Shown in pieces: positions 23,950 through 36,505 of a stretch of 64,000 bases of DNA. The position numbers were made by a program, and so were the translations under genes. This DNA comes from Termitomyces sp. T153. Lineage: Eukaryota; Basidiomycota; Agaricomycetes; Agaricales; Lyophyllaceae. The notes under the pieces are model-generated. The model searched no databases. It was given only the letters and a program-made list of their open reading frames with translations, and was not told where the DNA came from. The DNA is taken from NCBI GenBank assembly GCA_018296165.2, contig JACKQL020000143.1:1-64000 (forward strand). The letters run 5' to 3'. How positions within the stretch are numbered: position 1 is the stretch's first letter; every line of letters starts with the position of its first letter.

Positions 23950-26618
23950 ATGACGTTGGACGACCTCATTAGCTCTGAGCTTCAAATCACCAGTGTGTAA
24001 CGATAACTATCTTGGGCTATCGCGTGGGCTCATACTTTTGTAATGTTTAGATATCAGGGTTGAACTCCCTGTGTCCTCTAACAAAGTAATTCAATATGTA
24101 GACATCAAGATAGACACAGAGAAAGTGGGGGGTCAAGCATTAACTAGAGCATCTCGAACCCTGGCTGTGGTATTGGATCGACCTCGGTGGGCAAATGATA
24201 CGATTTCATGGGTACCTGAGGAACTTATCATTCTCATAGTGTAGTCAGGCGGTCTCTTGAAATCGAGGTCCACCTATGTTATGAAAACATTTTGAGAAGA
24301 AGGTGGAGGACTGATGGGCCATTTTCAATCACTCCTCAGGACTTGCTGTCCGCGTCAAGTCAAGGAATTGAGAACGAGGAAGGTACATCGCGTTAATTTG
24401 CGCCTCTAACGTTTTTCTGACTGACTATCAACTATTAACCAGAATGGTTTGGAAAATTTGGAAAATTGACGATCATAGTCGGTTTCAAGACGACACATGT
24501 TAGGTCAATCTACCCAGGCCAAGCGACTTAATACTGATAGAAATGCAAGCCGTTAGAAGCCATAAGCCAGAGAAATGGGTCTCCAGAGCCTGCGGATGGA
24601 AGGAGGCTGACACCTACAACAGAAAGCATCCTTCGTGACTGCCCTCAGTCAGTAGAAAGCTTCAAATCTATTCTGCTTATACGATAATTATGTCCACTAC
24701 CAGCTTCCGAATTCTTGTCATGGGAAAGGTTCGTTACTATGTTTTCTATACTCCAGAATCTAAACTCATTGTCGATCGACAGACGGGTGTAGGTAAATCA
24801 TCCCTGATCAACAAGACGTTTGGAGTCGATGATGCGGCGAGTCTACCGTCATTTTGTTCATGAACGCTGCAAGCTGACGAGGGCATTCTTTTAGATTGTG
24901 GCACATAATCAAGTCGGGTTCGCCGATATAAACAAAGAAATCTACTCTAAAGTAAACCCCCATTTTGTCCTCCATGATAGCAAGGGCTTTGAGTATGGTG
25001 ATGACACCAACGTCAAAATAGTCCGTCGTTTCATTGAAGAACGGAGGGACGCGCCTCGCATCACAGATAAACTACACGCAGTGTGGTAGGCCATTGACTT
25101 ATCTGTGAATGACCCCTCGATTACATCACGTATAGGTTATGTATAGATATTCCAATAGGCGGTGGTCGATTTCTGGAAACCGGAATTGAAGAGTTTCTGA
25201 AACTCAAAATTGGGGGCAAACTAGGAGGTGGTATGCTTCTCCAATATGTAGTGGTAATAGTCACAATCTGACCACATTCATTATAGTTCCCGTCATTGCC
25301 GTCTTTACGAAATATGATCTTTTGATTGTGCACGAAACCCGGTTACTCAAACAAAGAGATCCTGGTATTTCAAAGGAAGAAGTTACAAATTTGGTCCAGC
25401 AAAATGCAAATGCGAAACTTCAGGATGCTTGCGTAAAACCTTTTGAAAGCTTTGTGCAAGGAAGAGTGCCTCACATCACTGTGTCAAGTCTGTCTGAAGC
25501 TGTATATTCACGATTGGTGTCATTAACTCATTGTTACAGCGGAAACTGGATATGAAGATCATTTATCTAAATTGACTCACATAACTTATCTGCATGTTCG
25601 TGATTATCTGTCGGATGCTTCCGTTGTCACCGCCATGGCTCAGCGAGCGAGCGCTCGAGTCAAAATTCAGGCGTCTATCGAGTGAGTGATGACCTTGTGG
25701 AATTATTCAGAGCCACCAACCTTTTGATCGTAGGGTTGGTCGAAGGAGTACGTCAGTACCTTTGGAAGGTACTTACCCTAACTCAGTATCTTTAGAATAT
25801 TGGGCACGGTTGGCAGCAAGTGTTAATTTTCCTGGGAAGACTTTGCAACAATGCATTGATGTCATCCATGCTGATATCATCGCGGTCTGGAGGTTCAATG
25901 ATCCCCAAGGGGTTAGTAAAAGTGACTTTTGTAAAAGAAATCATTCGGACTGATTCGATTCCCTAGTACCTGTCGAGTGATAAATTTAAAGCAATGATGT
26001 CCAACATCATTGTTTCTGATAAGGATCCGAGTACAAACCTGTAAGTGCTGCACTCATGCTGATACATTGGTCTTAGCGCAAAACCTATAGAATCGCGGGA
26101 GTATCTCTTGTTTCAGGCATTGCTGGTATTGTATCTGCTTTGTCCGGTCCTGCGGTCCCGATTGTCCTTCCCATCGCTACTGCACTTGTACTTGCGAGGT
26201 GGGTATATGATGTGTATCAGCAGACGTGCGTTGATCTTTCTCGGCAATGCACTTCTTTGACCGACCAGTATTTAGGGCCTTCGTACTGAGACATCTCATG
26301 ACCTATATCATTGACCTTACACTTATTCTTCAGAACATCTTTTGGCTTCAAGCATTAGTTCCTGATTGCCCCTTATCACGTCGAATCATCAAGATGGGAG
26401 TACGTGCCTATCAAGGCTCTACTACAAAACGCATACTGTCTTTCAAGATAGATAAACATCTTGAAGGTGTATCTTTCCATGTTGGCCCCGACACGACGCT
26501 CAATACCATTGAGGAGTTGATTAAATCAAATATTATTGAAACAACAGAGATGCTGAAACACAGGGAAACTTTTTCTCATTTAAATAATGTCAGAGATGAT
26601 GAGGCATGGGAATCATAG
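23950..26618 (+). CDS. P-loop GTPase paralogue A with C-terminal membrane segment
   Basis: Proposed exons: 23950-23992, 24051-24382, 24443-24498, 24550-24647, 24704-24728, 24783-24836, 24895-25085, 25136-25230, 25287-25487, 25540-25681, 25734-25747, 25796-25911, 25967-26040, 26091-26225, 26276-26618. G1 is FRILVMGKTGVGKSSLIN (split by an intron after GK), G3 is HDSKGFE, G4 is FTKYD. The fold is of the TRAFAC GTP-binding type. Exon 14 encodes a long hydrophobic stretch (GIAGIVSALSGPAVPIVLPIATALVLARW), suggesting membrane anchoring. From exon 3 onward all phases agree to the TAG at 26616 (about 514 codons). The N-terminal module (exons 1-2, C2-like in pattern) is damaged: an in-frame TAG at 24242 and a one-base offset against paralogue B. 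Intron 6 begins GCGAGT, not GT. Function is unknown; Agaricomycetes carry many such genes. Confidence 0.72.
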
Positions 26619-26724
26619 AGGGTGGTTCTAGAGGATAGGACTATTGATCAAATCCAGGCTAATCTGCATTTGTCAAGAATAGCGAATGTCATTCCTTGTT
26701 TTACTACACTATAAGCATCTTTCG

Positions 26725-29700
26725 TCACAATTTGATCTCTTCCTGTCTAATAGGAGCTAGAGCAAGTTTGATTGTTTTGAGTACTATATCATGAACATGA
26801 ACAACTTACTTATACTATTTTCCAGAACAATTTTGACAAGATTGTCACGAAGATGTAGCTGTGCCTTCTTCTCTTCAGTTGATTTTTCTGGTGGAAGAAG
26901 GAAGGACACTGATGGTGATCTCTTTCTGCCAAATGAGGACAAGTCCAGGGCCTTGACACAGGACATGACGGCAGGGAAGTTCTGGGACTTCAGATAGACA
27001 TCCAGAGCTGCCTCAATGGATTCCTTGAAGGACATCTGGTGGTTCTCCTGTTTTAAGAAAAACGAGTGCTCTGCAACAATGGCTAGTGCTATACAAATTC
27101 ATCTTTTTGAGTAGCTTTTTTAAAGTTTGAATAAAATGATGCCTGACAAATTGCGAGTTGGACAATTTGGTGGCCAACAAGTGCTTCCATATTGTCCATC
27201 TGGAATAATTGATTGGTTACTTGAGTTGAGAATGGTAGAGAGCCCTACCAATTTTACTAATGTCTCTTGAATGATTTGATCATTTTGGATATTTTGAAGC
27301 TATGTAAGGTCAGTCATACTAGAGGCAAATCATGACATTTGGACTCACTCTCTGGAAGAAACATTCATATGTTACAATATAACAGGCAGTGGAAACTCAC
27401 AGTCTGTTTTGTTTGAATAATTGAGTGAGTGATTGAAGAAACATTGAAGTCTCTTACAGTCTAGAGACCAGTGGCGGAGTTGTGCCTATCTTATTAAACA
27501 AAACTTACTAGCTGGAATTCAAAGGCCCAAGTGATTTTAAAGTCTAGACACAGTATGGACCAAAAGTAAACTTACCCACTGTTGATAACCATCTGAATTT
27601 CCACTTTTATACAAAGTATACAAGCTGTGACTTACAATCTAACCAAATAATTAGTATCAAGTGATTGATGGTGATGTTGGAGCCAAACTCACATCCTACA
27701 TGAAAAAAATAAGTATGGTATCTTGATGTAGTAAAATAACTCACATCCCGCTATTAGATGAGTAAAATTTTCAAATAATTTGGCAGTTGAAATTGGTCAG
27801 TTGTGCATACCCCCTTCAAATTGCTATGTCAAGTGATTTGTGATTTCAAGGTAATGATGAAAAACTTGCATGCTAAGAAGATGAGTTGGTTGAGCATACA
27901 GTCAATACAGTTTCATAATATCATTCACTTTCTTTCCACATGATGACATGTAAATTCAAGGTGATTTGTATCAAGGCAAACAACTCACTAGCTGTGATAA
28001 TTGATCAATGAGAAAAAGAAACATCATTTTATAAAAATACATACCACCTAGCAAATTATGAAATTGGAGCCATTATTTGGCATGCAAAGAAGAATTTAAT
28101 CACCCTCTACTCAAGAATTAACTTGATTAATAAGAAGGCAACATAGACTTACTTCCTGCAAACATTGAGAGTCTAAAATCAGATCAAGAATATAACTTAC
28201 ATCCTGAATAAAGTTTCAGAAAAAAACTAACATCAGAATATTGTGTTACTCTACTGACCCTCTGAAAAAATGGTCAACAGAAGTTGAGTATGATGAGAAA
28301 TCCAAAATCTTACAAGCTATTGAGCACCAGTCTTAGTCAAAAGCAGTATTGAAGTAACATGACATACAAGCTATGGAAAGTGGTTGAATTCTAAGCAAAA
28401 ATAACAAAGAGAACATAAGCTTACTGTACGCTGAAATCCATGAACAGAATCAGTGAAATGTTTTGCTTCAACAATAACACTCACTAGCTACAATCATGTA
28501 TATCAATGTTGTTAAAATCAAATTCAACCTATATCACAGCTTACCAACTATGATATAGAATGTCATTGGAAAAATGCACACATAAATAGAGCAAACTCAC
28601 CAACTGGTTTTTATTACATTCAATAGACAAGTAAAAGTGAATGATAGAGGACATACATGCTGCAGTTCAAGTTGAGTGTAGAGAGAGAATAATAGGAAAT
28701 TAGATGTAACTCACATCCTTTGCAAGAATAAATAATTATTATCAAAAATTGCTGCATACAATGCACAACATACCATCCCAGTCTACATATGAAGAAGATG
28801 AAAGAGTGGGCAAATGTGACAATTGTTCAAGATTGACGCACATTCTCAATTGAGGTATTGAGTAGATTCAGAAGTATATTGAGAATGAGTTTCACAAAGA
28901 TCTCACCATCTAAATATCTGTAATTAGTCAACTAGAGAAGATGGTGTTACAAGCACTCACAATCTAATTGACATTAAGTTGAATTAGCTGAAAATGTAGC
29001 TGAATTACTGACATCCTAAAAGCCAAATTAGCTCCTGAATTAGTGGAATCAGAATTTGAATGTTTACAGGCTGAAATAAATCAAGAATTAAGCATTTAAT
29101 TAGATTGATTAGACTGTTTATCAGACTTACATCCTATGAAAAAGTTAAATACCACATATTCAATCACATAACAATGTTTTTCATACCAGCTGAGATACAA
29201 GTTACATCAGTTATATTGAATGAAACTTATTGAGTGAATTACCTGAATCTGTGACAGAAGAATCATTTTTGTATAGTTAGAATTGTTCACTGTAATAACA
29301 TACTTCCTGAAAAGCAGCTTATATGAGAATTTCTGAATCAGTGCAATGAAAAAAACTCACGCCCTGAATTCTCTCTAGTGCCCTCATACATCTACTAAAA
29401 GATGGTTGAACTTACATTCTAAGAAAACACTTAATCAACACTGTTAACTTGAGTCACATAAACAACCAACCTCCTTGTAAAATTAATCAAAGGTGCAATC
29501 ATAATATAGGCTGACTCACCCCCTAGAGAGCCAATTCTAGACAAAAAACAAACTGCTTGTCAAGTAACTCACCATCATCTATAAGAGTAATGTCAATGAC
29601 TATGTAAATTAGTAGATATAATAAAAATGGCTTACTAGCTGTAAATACCAATAAAGAAATCTATTGAGCATCAGTACCAATAAGAAGGAAGTGCTCACAT

Positions 29701-31031
29701 CCTACAAATAAATGGTGAGTTTTTAGGGAATTAAAACTAGACAAAGGCTTCACATACACCCTATTACATTGATGAGTATTAAAATGAATTGATTTAGATG
29801 GATGCACTAAGTACCAGAATGTGAGGATACCATCTCAAGATAAGAGACTCCACTTGTTTGATAGACAGCTTATTCACTGATTCCATCCTCAAAATAAGCT
29901 TTCTGCACAAGAATTTAACAGTTCCACAATCTGTAAACAATCTCCAATTTGCATACTCAATGGCATGTGTTGTGCACAGCTTCAAAGTGATTTGCTGCGT
30001 AGCTACAAAGAGCAGCTGGAGGGTATCATCGTCAAGGGCCTCTGCAGTCACTTCCAGAAGTCTACTGCAGTCAGCATTTGCTTTATCCATGTCTAAAGGA
30101 AGGGTGACATCAATATTGATATGCATATAGCTGTTCGCAAGAGTCATTGTACCTCGAAGCGCCACGTAGCCTTTAGGTTTATATTTGAAGTTGAAGATAG
30201 GAAGTTTCGAGCGCATTTCCTCGAAAAGCTGCTGAGCGCGCTCGGGAACATAAGGGTTGGGATCATCATATCCTTTCTCTCGCTGGAGCAACTGAAATGC
30301 TCTATCATCGAACGCGTCAAACTTGGTAAACAATACAACGACAGGCACTGTTGAGTACGGTCAGAGGCGATCGAATAACGGCATCTGATTAACAGACCAT
30401 GTCCTGTACCACACTCCGAGAAAAACTCAATCTCTGCCTTCGTAACAGGACGACTATCATTCAAAGGAATGCAATACCTTTGCAGCAACCGATGAGTTAT
30501 AGCGGCTCTCGTGAGATCCAGAAATGAAAGATACCAAATGACATGTATGCGATCTTTGAGGTGCATCCCATGTGCCCTGTTCTTTATGAAATTTTTAACA
30601 CGACTTAATTCCTCTGTAGTCCCTGCTTCAAAACCGCGAGAGTCGTGAAATATGAATTCTGGATTACTTTTGAAGATCATTTCATTTTCGATCTCGTGGA
30701 GTCCTCGCTTCCAACATGATCAGCTAGTGCGGAAAGCAGAACTTGTAAATTCTTACACTGGCGGCTGGTTTAAGGATAGACGGATCAATCTAATGCAGGT
30801 TCACATATATCACTAGTATAGAGACAGGAATGAACGTACTGGTTGTTGAGTGCCATCTAGAATCTCAGGATCTTCTGTCGAATTGCACACTCTTTTCAAG
30901 ATAGTCGTTTTCCCGGAATTCGCTCTCCCAATAATGAGAATACGAAAACGTTCTGCCCTCTTGCGGTTCTTAATGGCTTGTTCTGGCTTCACGTTTGAAT
31001 TACGTCTGCATACAGGTGCGAGCATGCTCAT
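26725..31031 (-). CDS. P-loop GTPase encoded through 43 micro-exons
   Basis: Conventional exons 31031-30840, 30789-30757, 30707-30535, 30477-30398, 30347-30153 and 30092-29815 encode residues 1-317. G1 is GRANSGKT (35-42), G3 is DSRG (97-100) and G4 is TKFD (167-170), with the HAIWYC-like IHVIWYCIP and LLFVATQQITLKLC segments of a large Agaricomycete GTPase family. The frame then enters 43 micro-exons (29760-27349, separate entry) giving 49 residues. It resumes in exons 27299-27249, 27199-27095, 27047-26810 and 26756-26725, a helical tail with LQNIQNDQIIQETLVKL and KESIEAALDVYLKSQNF, ending at TGA 26725. Total 1524 nt, 507 aa, no stop, every junction phase-consistent over 53 exons. That consistency is observed; that the transcript is really spliced this way is inferred. 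Alternatively the GTPase and the tail exons are separate genes. The start ATG at 31031 precedes the P-loop by 34 codons. Confidence 0.65.
27349..29760 (-). other. Array of 43 in-phase micro-exons
   Basis: Read on the minus strand, 44 back-to-back introns (45-64 nt) are separated by units of 3 nt (38 cases), 6 nt (29578-29573, 29248-29243, 28430-28425, 27750-27745) or 9 nt (28782-28774). Examples: GGT 29760-29758, GAT 29701-29699, CTA 29638-29636, GGG 29522-29520, GAG 29473-29471, AAT 29418-29416, GGC 29363-29361, TGG 27578-27576, ACT 27460-27458 and 27403-27401, AGA 27351-27349. Almost every unit is preceded by TAG, CAG or AAG and followed by GTGAGT, GTAAGT, GTATGT or a close variant; one donor is GCAAGT (after CAT 27872-27870). 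None of the 49 codons is a stop, and all units are multiples of three in phase 0. GAT occurs six times and CTA four times as single-codon exons. Introns share no obvious sequence beyond splice signals. The region is strongly AT-rich. Confidence 0.8.
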
Positions 31032-32081: not shown

Positions 32082-34784
32082 ATGGTGAACGACCTCACCT
32101 TCTCTCAGCTCCAAATCACTGGTGTGTGGTATATTATAGTCCTCGAATGCTATCGCTTGGCTCACATTCTTCGTGCTTAGATATCACGGTTGAACTGCCT
32201 GTGTCCTCGAGCAAATCGATTCAGTCCATAGACATTGCAATAGATGACGAAAATGTGTCTGGGCAAGTCAGGGGACAGGCATTAGCTGGAGCATCTCGAA
32301 CACTAATTGTGGCGCTGGATCGACCTCGGCGAGTAGACAAGCACGACTTTCTCGGCGCTTAAGAAACTTATCATCCCCGCAGTGCCGTTTCGGTGTCTCT
32401 ACAATTGACGGTTCATCTACGCTACAGAAATATCTTGGGGGGAAAGTGGAGGAGTGATGGGCCATTTTCAATCGGTATTGAGGAACTAGTAGACGCTTTC
32501 AGTCGAGGAATCGGGGACAAAAAAGGTGCCTTGCATCAGGTTCTGTCCTGAATGCCTTGAACTTACTCGTGGCCAGAATGGCATGGGAAGTTCGGAAAAT
32601 TGACGGTCATTGTCGGCTTGACGACACACACAACATATGTAAGGTCAATTCATAAAAGCTAAGCAACGTGATCCTGATAGCAATTTTAGCCAGCCAACCG
32701 AGCGAGTCTGAGCATAGACTCTGTGAGCCTCGGGAATGATCCTTCTGACCACGAGGATGGAATCAGGCTTACGCCTACAACAGAGAGTATCCTTCGCGAT
32801 TGCCCTCAGTGAGTGGGAACCTGAATGTTAACATTGTTGTATGTTTATCAATGTTTGTCCTGAGATTCCGAATTCTCGTCATGGGAAAGGTTCGGAACAT
32901 TGTTTTTTCAATGGAAAGCTAACGATTGTTTGGCAGACGGGCGTGGGGAAATCTTCTCTGATCAACAAGACGTTTGGAGTTGACGATGCAGTAAACCTAT
33001 TACCATCCTGTCAGTCATAAGCGCAAGTTGACAGAAGCATACTTTTAGATTGTTGCCCATAATGAAGTAGGGTTTGCTAATATCGATCAGGAAATATACT
33101 CCGAGGAAAACCCCCATTTCGTCCTCCATGATAGTAAAGGGTTCGAGCAGGGCGACGATACCAACGTCAAGATAGTCGATAATTTTATCAACGAGCGGAA
33201 GAACATGCCTCACATCAAGGATAAACTACATGCAGTGTGGTGGGTTACTTGTTGATCCATTGACGGTCTCCATGCTGATTCAAGTATAGGCTTTGCCTGG
33301 ATATTCCAATAGCCGGAGGGCGACTATTGGAAACTGGCATTGAGGAGTTTTTGAAGCACAAGATTGAGGGCAAACTAGGCAATGGTATGCAGATAATCAA
33401 TCATGACGATCAATGTGGTCTGATGAGCCCATCATAGTCCCCGTCATCGCTGTCTTCACAAAATATGATCTTTTGGTTGCACGCGAAAATCGTTTACTCA
33501 AACGAGCTGACCACCCTGGCAAATCAGATGGAGAAATTAAAACTTTAATTGAACAGAATGTGGACGCCAAGCTCCAGGAAATCTGCATTGAACCTTTTGA
33601 AAGGTTTGTGAAAAAGGGAGTGCCTCATATCACCGTGTCAAGTATATCTGAGGCTGCGTATTCGTGCTCGGGGTCATTAATTCATCGTTTCAGCGGAAGT
33701 CGGATTCGAGGATCGCTTATCTCGCTTGATCCAAATCACTTACGAGCACGTTCGTGATTATTTGGCGGACGCATCTGTTGTTAGCGCCATCGCTCAACGA
33801 ACAAGCCCTCGAGTTAAAATTCAGGCATCCATTGAGTAAGCAATGATTCTTTACATTGTCGAAGCCTCTAACAGATTTTAGGGTCGGCCGAAGGAGTACG
33901 TTAGTGAATGTTGGAGACATCTACTCTGACAGCTCGTTGTAGAATACTGGGAACGATTGGCAACAAGTGTCAATTTTCCTGGAAAGCCTCTACGGCAATG
34001 TATCGATGTCATTCATACTGATATCATCGCGACTTGGCGGTTCAATGATCCTCAGGGGGTTAGAGAATTAAATTCTGTAATCTGACTATTCAGACTGATC
34101 AATTCCTACGCAGTATTTGTCAAGTGATCAATTCAAAGCAATGATGTCCAATGTCGTTGTTGCTCCAGGGGATCAAAGTAACGACCCCAGTAAAAACCTG
34201 TAAGTCGATGTACTCATGTCTAATTGACTTGTTTTCAGTACCAAGCTTCTAGAGTCGCGGGAGTAAGTCTCGTGGCAGGCATTGCAGGCATCGTTTCCGT
34301 TTTGTCTGGCCCTGTGGCTCCAATAGTCATTCCCGTTGCTGCTGCTCTTGTAATGGCAAGATGGGTCTATGTTGTGTATCAAGAGACGTGCGTTTATTTT
34401 TGATTTGACTACAGTGCTTTTGATTCTTTGATTTCCAGGACTTTCGTGCTAAGACATCTTATGACTTATATTATTGACCTCACCCTTATCCTCCAAAATA
34501 TCTTTTGGCTTCAAGAATTGGGCGATCCTGACCGTCCTCTATCACGCCGGACCATCAAGATGGGAGTACATGCTTATGAAGGCTCCACTACAAAACGCAC
34601 GCTATCTTTCAAGATTAATCAACATCTTGATGGCCTATCCTTCCATGTAGGCCCTGACACGACACTCAATACTATCGAGGCATTGATCCAATCAAACATC
34701 ATTGAATCAAAGGAGATGCTGGGACACAGAGGAACTTTTCCTTTTTCAAACATTGTTAGAGATGATGAAACTTGGGAAGGGTAG
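32082..34784 (+). CDS. P-loop GTPase paralogue B with C-terminal membrane segment
   Basis: Proposed exons: 32082-32121, 32181-32525, 32577-32638, 32690-32808, 32865-32889, 32937-32990, 33049-33239, 33290-33384, 33438-33641, 33694-33835, 33882-33895, 33943-34058, 34114-34199, 34253-34387, 34439-34784. Exon-intron structure is the same as paralogue A, including a 14-nt exon. Motifs: G1 FRILVMGKTGVGKSSLIN, G3 HDSKGFEQGDD, G4 FTKYD. The hydrophobic exon 14 contains GIAGIVSVLSGPVAPIVIP. The N-terminal module (ITDITVELPVSSSKSIQSI through FSIGIEELVDAFSRG) is in the same frame as the rest but is crossed by TAA at 32360-32362; paralogue A has TGA at the matching codon of the same frame. Either an intron I cannot place removes it, or the N-terminus is not translated. 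From exon 3 on the reading is clean to the TAG at 34782. Probably a GTP-binding protein at a membrane; role unknown. Confidence 0.74.
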
Positions 34785-36505
34785 AGTGTATGTGATTAAT
34801 GAAGCCATATGTCATTTATGATGTCTATAGTTTTCACTATGTATCACAGGATCCTTGTTTTAACTAGCTCCATCAATTGAAATCTGATGAAGAGTTGAGA
34901 CAGCTGATTAGTCTGGATGCTCTGAGCCTGTGTAAAGGTAAACTCCAGAGGCTATGGCTTAGTGATACAGTTGGCAGAGGGAGATCTAAGTACATTCAAT
35001 ACTGTACAGTGTCTACAAGCATAATTACACACCTGGCAGAGAGAAACTCAAAGAGAACAAGTCTGGGGATTTCCTATGTGAAGTGTGGAAAAGAGCTGTA
35101 CAGAACAACAAAAAGAAAGAGTTACAAGTCACACCTAAGGCAAGTCACTTTGTTCTTCTTAATGGGACTTAAGAGGAGCTATTGGATAGGACAAGAAGGG
35201 GCCTAAATGATGGGAGGTTGTGAGGTTTTGCTTCTTTTCACTGGACTAGGACCTTTAGAGATTCTAGATTATATCCCAAGATTCCTGATTACCACCTAAC
35301 CTCCACCTTCAGACTGTCATAATTTGACCTTTATACCCTCACAGTTATGTATCAATCTGTTATGTTCTCAGCATCTTCAACTTGCTAGCTGCTCTGACTA
35401 TAATGATGCCCCCATCTAAGTATTCAACCCTGCTAATAATGCTCACTTCAGCTAAGTACAAAAAACCTAACCAAAAATACAAAGGCATAAGAAACTCCTT
35501 TGTTCTGGAGTAAGTGGTCTTTGGTTATGAAGAAAGAAGGTTAGGTAGTATACTAGTTGGAGTTGAGTTCTAGGGGCTGTATTGTAAATGAAAAGATAAG
35601 ATGGCTTCCTTAGTATAAAGTTCACTTTGTGGTTTCAGTTTTATTAACAAATTTTGGTAACTAGTTTTCACATTTGTAAAACACCTAATTATTAACAGAC
35701 TTTGAAGGCTTTGGCTTTCTTTCAAGTTCTTACAAGCAGAAAATGCAAACCATAACAGTCACACTAATTGACAATACTTCCCAACACCTGACAGCTTTCT
35801 GTTCAATGTAATCAAAAAGCAATCCAAGTTCTCTGAGATCACTACTGTTGGAACTGTTAACAAATTCAGTTCACATTGCAAATACCTTGTATTTTGAAAA
35901 CAAGATGAAAGGAGTGAAAAGTTGTTGTTCTCCTCCCTCTATCTTATAGTACAATATATATCCAGGTTTTGAAATAATACTATAGTGGATGCCAATAGGA
36001 TGTTTAGTAAAGTAGTCATAGTCAGCTCTACTTACTAATTGTTATGATTAGCACAACTTGTAGTCATCTGGCAGCCATAATGTCAGCATTTTCACAAGAC
36101 AAACCCTACTTTCTAGTTGTGTAAGGGTGATCTCTGGAGGCTCTGGTTCAATCACATAGTTAGTAGATAGATTGTCCAAGTGTATTCAGAGTATATAGAT
36201 GGTTCTGGGGTACTAACCATTCACTGGGTCCAAAGAAGACAAATCTAAGGATTCCCTTGCCAGGTTTCAGAAGTTTACTCTAGAGCTTTCAGGAAAAATG
36301 CAAAGAAACATCCCAAGCCCAAGTCCTGACCTAAATATGGAAATCCACTGTAATTAGCCTTGAATACAGGCTCACAGGCACATAACAGGGCTATAGTGGT
36401 ACTAACAGATATTCCTGGTCAAGAAGTACCTGTGGTACAAGTATGGTGGGGTTTGGTGGAAAGAGAGACCAACAATAAAGAAAATGGTTGAGAGAGCTAG
36501 TCCTC
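34785..36505. other. AT-rich gap before the retrotransposon block
   Basis: 1.7 kb, AT-rich, without a supported gene. The 109-codon open frame at 34877-35206 has no recognised domain. CpG is nearly absent, as in the neighbouring elements, so this may be old decayed transposon sequence. I see no LTR or splice-site array here. Confidence 0.35.

Follow-up and report, generated by a model that had tools for sequence, protein, structure and literature searches.

The 64,000-nucleotide (nt) stretch analyzed here (positions 1 to 64,000 of contig JACKQL020000143.1 of Termitomyces sp. T153, hereafter the window) contains a minus-strand gene whose predicted spliced frame runs from an ATG at 31031 to a TGA at 26725 and comprises 54 exons encoding 485 residues, with a single terminal stop. 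Its predicted product is GTPase-like, with a putatively helical region at the C-terminus. Exons 1 to 7 end with the residues WYPHIL, at which the GTPase-like part closes; four 3′ exons supply the stop and the conserved C-terminal sequence (LQNIQ...SLAIVAEHSFF...TPIRQEEIKL), the last exon (26756–26725) being set by comparison with the database protein P0001. Between WYPHIL and the conserved C-terminal helices lies the element considered in this study, a run of closely spaced predicted introns and microexons (array 1; Table 1). The nine ordinary introns of the gene measure 49–60 nt and are of mixed phases, namely 0, 0, 2, 1, 1 and 2 for the six located before the array and 0, 1 and 1 for the three located after it. 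The exons flanking array 1 are conserved in eight aligned relatives and are joined in one frame through the array.

Array 1 consists of 44 consecutive predicted introns of 45–64 nt (mean 53.8), which delimit 43 microexons, 38 of them 3 nt long, four 6 nt and one 9 nt (147 nt in sum). All 44 introns are in phase 0 and none of the 49 codons is a stop; our recount thereby agrees with the initial annotation of the region, which had described introns of this number, size, spacing and phase around 49 stop-free codons. Using a chain search, a dynamic programme on donor and acceptor scores in which phase is ignored and exon lengths of 1–15 nt are permitted, we obtained a chain of 43 introns in which 40 of the 42 exon lengths were divisible by three. 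Under four settings of this search, multiples of three accounted for 40/42, 34/39, 43/43 (44 introns) and 32/35 exon lengths, weak sites being lost when the settings were stricter. The two off-phase exons (11 and 13 nt) are reduced to 3 nt with the acceptors TTTAG (28910) and GAAG (27814), and the first intron was placed by hand, outside the automatic chain.

The same annotation had held this regularity to be beyond what chance splice sites produce, a claim that is borne out by our controls. The array 1 chain scored 147.6 where the best of 30 Markov shuffles reached 19.6, and 146.7 where the best of five shuffles of the whole window reached 14.4. In the rest of the genome, sampled as 23 stretches totalling 223,003 bases (0.3% of the 72.4-Mb genome), the best chain score was 20.0. 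Similarly, the motif [CT]AG-N(k)-GTR[AT]G[TC], which joins an acceptor to the following donor, occurs in array 1 24 times at k=3, three times at k=6 and once at k=9, and is absent at the remaining k within 0–12; its control frequency is 0.05–0.08 per kb per k (568,606 bases, both strands).

Table 1. Features of the array 1 gene (window coordinates)
Feature	Coordinates	Strand	Description
Exon 1	30840..31031	-	Contains the start codon and, from the GTPase-like domain, the P-loop GRANSGKT
Exons 2–7	29815..30789	-	30789-30757, 30707-30535, 30477-30398, 30347-30153, 30092-29957, 29902-29815
Microexon array 1	27300..29814	-	44 predicted introns and 43 microexons; predicted peptide GDLMMGENGEIQLDPDIMNTGMDHLLLRTLLRDERVLKHGRDDIWLTTR
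First array 1 intron	29761..29814	-	GTACTT...ATAG; left out of the J132 model P0003, read into in P0002
Four 3′ exons	26725..27299	-	27299-27249, 27199-27148, 27088-26810, 26756-26725

A second array was identified in a paralogue on contig C5 of the same genome (L019, C5:1393948-1397165, plus strand; predicted frame of 445 residues), at the same position of the protein. Array 2 contains 52 predicted introns of 45–69 nt, all in phase 0; of its 51 microexons, 50 measure 3 nt and the remaining one 9 nt, and their sequence differs from that of array 1. Its chain score reached 234, whereas none of five whole-window shuffles exceeded 14.4, and the acceptor–donor motif was found 43 times at k=3 and once each at k=6 and k=10, with no occurrence at the remaining k within 0–12. 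Multiples of three were again prevalent under the four search settings (49/51, 47/51, 50/52 and 44/47 exon lengths); in the raw chain two of the 51 exon lengths (4 and 8 nt) are off-phase and require an in-phase second choice. One join before the array is ambiguous, as AFSTKV was used where P0121 has AVNYTKV, and the frame is kept either way. The placement of in-frame microexons within one gene, also claimed by the initial annotation, is thus supported at the sequence level by conserved exons on both sides and by a paralogue carrying a second array.

We next compared the individual units within each array. Identity over donor positions +1 to +6 was 0.73 across the units of array 1 and 0.81 across those of array 2, compared to column identities of 0.29–0.31 and 0.31–0.46, respectively, in the intron bodies, and a full GTRAGT donor was present in 55/96 array introns versus 2/19 ordinary introns of both genes; these contrasts arise in part by construction, since the chain search favours good donors. 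The branch-point-like sequence CTRAY, which played no part in the scoring, was found in 15 of the 44 array 1 introns versus 7.5 in shuffles (1/200 shuffles having as many) and in 25 of the 52 array 2 introns versus 8.6 (0/200). If retained, 38 of the 44 array 1 introns and all 52 array 2 introns would disrupt the frame or introduce a stop.

The introns of array 2 are diverged copies of one unit of ~62 bp, whose consensus includes a CTGAC-like branch site, and they are clearly alike (z-score 26.9, 10 shuffles); Tandem Repeats Finder detected no repeat in array 1. The relatedness of the array 2 units could be taken to indicate a decaying minisatellite-like repeat within a dead gene, in which the splice-like motif is the repeat core and nothing is spliced, but this explanation appears most improbable to us, given that the unit bodies of array 1 are near random and yet retain the splice motifs, that the flanking exons remain in frame and conserved in the aligned relatives, and that the longer exons are likewise multiples of three.

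The proteins nearest to the array 1 gene product are from Termitomyces T112 (P0001), Termitomyces 'cryptogamus' (P0002, 100% identical across the 36% of the searched region covered) and Termitomyces J132 (P0003), followed by proteins from Tephrocybe, Tricholoma and Arthromyces. A profile search returned 559 relatives at E 1e-10 among 7,993 scored candidates, at least 120 of which were listed, and the matches listed consist of GTPase-like proteins that come mainly from mushrooms wherever a source is given. In Pfam no family exceeded its cut-off, the best being G-alpha (21.1 bits, cut-off 48.8), with MMR_HSR1 at 17.9 (cut-off 21.9). The structure model of one relative, P0045, has a predicted local distance difference test score (pLDDT) of 79.4 and best matches the bacterial dynamin-like protein BDLP (2j69; E 2.9e-6, template modelling score (TM) 0.31, root-mean-square deviation (rmsd) 28.6) and the immunity-related GTPase Irga6 (4lv5; E 7.8e-6, TM 0.35, rmsd 13.3). 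Judged by these TM and rmsd values, the modelled dynamin/immunity-related GTPase-like fold is a loose match, significant in E and poor in overall superposition.

At the position of the array, the relatives carry a linker that varies in length and sequence. It measures about 40–50 residues in P0013, P0034, P0045 and P0122 (source contigs of 1.4–1.9 kb) and is almost missing from the database model P0006. In P0045, the one relative modelled, the linker is predicted to be disordered, with pLDDT <50 at residues 298–321, right after WFPQ at 292. These relatives bear on a second explanation, a splicing ladder, according to which a single 2.5-kb intron is removed stepwise at genuine splice sites, the triplets are by-products or skipped, and the mRNA joins 29815 directly to 27299. 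Such a jump would stay in frame, both outer exons being in phase 0, and it would suit the great variation in linker length and the near absence of a linker in P0006. A ladder requires no rule that the leftovers be multiples of three, as they are here including those of 6 and 9 nt, and four relatives do encode a linker of 40–50 residues at this place; we therefore consider it improbable.

The Termitomyces gene models themselves diverge at the array. The P0002 model ends within intron 1 of array 1, and in P0003 intron 1 is spliced out, the first microexon is read and the model ends inside intron 2. The P0001 model reads through array 1 introns, and is identical to the translation of the window over three in-array stretches (21, 30 and 22 residues), which end at two chain donors and start at one chain acceptor. 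Since P0001 derives from another named strain and is identical in these three in-array stretches, an assembly artefact is unlikely. For the sub-family of array 2, the Termitomyces models P0121 (T112) and P0123 (Mi166) end just before the array position.

Further observations were made on other relatives. P0122 (jgi, 1,388-nt contig), a relative of the array 2 paralogue, has a continuous linker of about 43 residues, with YDYGKTEDDN where the Termitomyces linker has YDYERKEEKE, in an alignment that is not significant (31/500 shuffles). In P0004, P0005, P0007 and P0009 (Tephrocybe, Tricholoma, Arthromyces) WYPH(I/V)L is followed by NVS, DVS or LVS; because these residues correspond to a translated GTGAGT-type donor, the species concerned may harbour an intron or an array in the corresponding position.

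Taken together, these results render it very probable that the array 1 introns are spliced singly, the codons between them forming a linker of 49 residues in the GTPase-like product, and array 2 is likely to have arisen by unit duplication; the splicing of both arrays is itself something we infer from the genomic sequence. Several points weigh against this interpretation. The introns of array 1 are barely alike (z-score 2.2) and give little sign of common descent, and for this reason a duplication origin of array 1 is an extrapolation from array 2. Array 1 includes poor donors (GTACTT, GTTGGT, GTAATT, GTATGA, GTAAAC, GTGAAT, GTGATT and GCAAGT) and poor acceptors (one GAG and four AAG), and the in-phase reading takes a second-choice site at two exons per array. 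P0001 uses one in-array acceptor outside the chain, in addition to reading through introns. The linker peptides, moreover, find no significant counterpart in the proteins compared: linker 1 aligns to the linkers of six relatives without significance (47 to 422 of 500 shuffles as good), as does linker 2 to that of P0122 (31/500), and among the 133 database proteins retrieved the longest word shared is five residues for linker 1 and six for linker 2. Homology of the linker peptides to the relatives' linkers was accordingly rejected as not significant. Finally, the absence of stops in the 102 array codons is weak evidence. At the frequency in the intron bodies 7.6 stops would be expected, but the composition of the triplets themselves predicts only 0.64 and 1.62 in the two arrays (chance of none 0.52 and 0.19), so the missing stops carry little weight and were rejected as proof of coding.

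As for a mechanism, each array intron would be recognized as a unit over its own length (intron definition), because factors could not occupy both ends of a 3-nt exon simultaneously. The introns would then be removed in sequence, with one codon being fused to the growing exon per step, and strong intronic donors would offset the missing exon contacts. Intron definition has been proposed for microexons in the available text of a study in which a short flanking intron relieves the need for PRP-40 (PMC8378409). The initial annotation had further presented the array as a challenge to the spliceosome; this we would soften, in that the array introns (mean 54 nt) are sized like the nine ordinary introns of the gene, and recognition of one intron after another could therefore cope with them.

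Given that all units are in phase 0 and multiples of three, the linker would tolerate growth of the array: the gain, loss or skipping of units would change it by whole codons without a frameshift, to which a disordered linker would be tolerant. Together with the frame-breaking effect of intron retention, such units would account for both the growth and the upkeep of an array. Array 2, the introns of which are diverged copies of one unit, has probably expanded through in-frame duplications, each of a codon together with its intron, and array 1 is probably an older array, in which the copies have drifted beyond recognition save for their splice signals.

Another origin to be weighed is an introner-like gain, in which intron copies were inserted between the codons of an older continuous linker. 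It treats the microexons as real coding sequence, concerns the origin only and does not conflict with what we propose for splicing. The continuous linkers of the relatives would fit it, as would the similarity of array 2 introns, which hardly changes with distance, from neighbours (0.067) to pairs over 12 apart (0.045). Insertion in phase 0 at nearly every codon boundary would be needed, and a genome search with the array 2 DNA gave, at the sensitivity used, no match apart from the array; we regard this origin as unlikely. The DNA of array 1 likewise has no second match in the genome. Returning to in-frame duplication, we tentatively put forward the notion of a 'codon-intron satellite', a new type of gene element made of units of one codon and one intron, whose copy number would rise and fall as in satellite DNA with the frame kept intact and which would thereby build linkers codon by codon. 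It is a possibility toward which we remain rather doubtful. As any subset of microexons stays in frame, one gene may yield linkers of varied length and sequence, and skipping may give rise to a population of linkers.

With respect to the genomic surroundings, two plus-strand paralogues flank the array 1 gene in the window, at about 24640–26620 and about 32830–34790. They belong to another branch of the GTPase-like family (sequence TGVGKSSLINKTFGVDD; C-terminal YIIDLTLILQNIFWLQ), neither contains a microexon array according to the chain search, and a further match lies at C143:73379. On contig C5, a partial family match with an internal stop (L019 1599-1826; C5:1391098-1391325, minus strand) is located about 1.2 kb upstream of the array 2 gene. 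Five protein queries against the own genome led to the two array genes and to paralogues (L020–L022 and those on the window plus strand) in which the chain search detected no array. Scanning viral_contigs and genome_contigs with alignment A3 gave 47 and 37 pattern stretches, respectively, none of which was a relative by tblastn.

Should transcripts confirm the predicted splicing, the two genes would contain the densest runs of minimal exons known to us, with 44 and 52 neighbouring introns mostly spaced by one codon, and in the array regions splicing would assemble the encoded proteins nearly residue by residue. A natural gene could then serve to test how far intron definition reaches, with regard to the order of removal, the error rate per intron and the minimum distance between an acceptor and the next donor. 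The arrays would also represent a route by which introns multiply in coding sequence while the frame is preserved, and would reveal a type of coding sequence overlooked by gene finders, as two of the three Termitomyces models of the array 1 gene stop in the first two array introns and the third reads through.

Consecutive short, phase-matched internal exons, the trait of micro-exon genes, are present in both Termitomyces genes as 43 and 51 predicted microexons of 3–9 nt in phase 0. Schistosome micro-exon genes likewise contain runs of short in-phase exons, mostly several codons long; no sequence link to them was seen, no direct comparison having been made. Recursive splice sites are spliced successively and involve exons of zero nt. 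Stwintrons, as described in the available text, also undergo successive splicing at crowded sites but are nested introns, unlike the complete neighbouring introns with coding triplets between them described here (PMC12403724). The 1-nt exon of Fusarium CYP621A (PMC12940212) and the 3-bp exon of Drosophila homothorax (PMC7392893) indicate, in the parts of these reports available, that exons of 1–3 nt can be spliced, but they occur once per gene and not in a run. A fungal precedent for gain by unit duplication is Cryptococcus CNN00420, in which introns were gained by duplication of an intron-containing repeat (PMC2395259); there two introns were gained, compared to the 44–52 introns here, and the portion of that account available does not mention single-codon exons.

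As stated in the accessible part of a 2024 publication, functional microexons had not yet been described in filamentous fungi (PMC11121469). The initial annotation had considered a run of single-codon exons undescribed, and the literature searched, which left out most subscription papers and bioRxiv preprints, likewise contained no such run. A close likeness is to the bicycle genes of aphids, which, according to the available text, have about 17 exons on average, nearly all of one phase, and to the megacycle gene, in which more than 100 microexons encode about 2000 residues (PMC9168663). These insect genes share the many small internal exons, but the megacycle figures imply far longer exons, and bicycle exons are of phase 2 (PMC9168663). 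The Termitomyces arrays differ from them in that 88 of the 94 microexons are exactly one codon long, in phase 0 and limited to one linker, and within the literature searched they constitute a new extreme of micro-exon genes.

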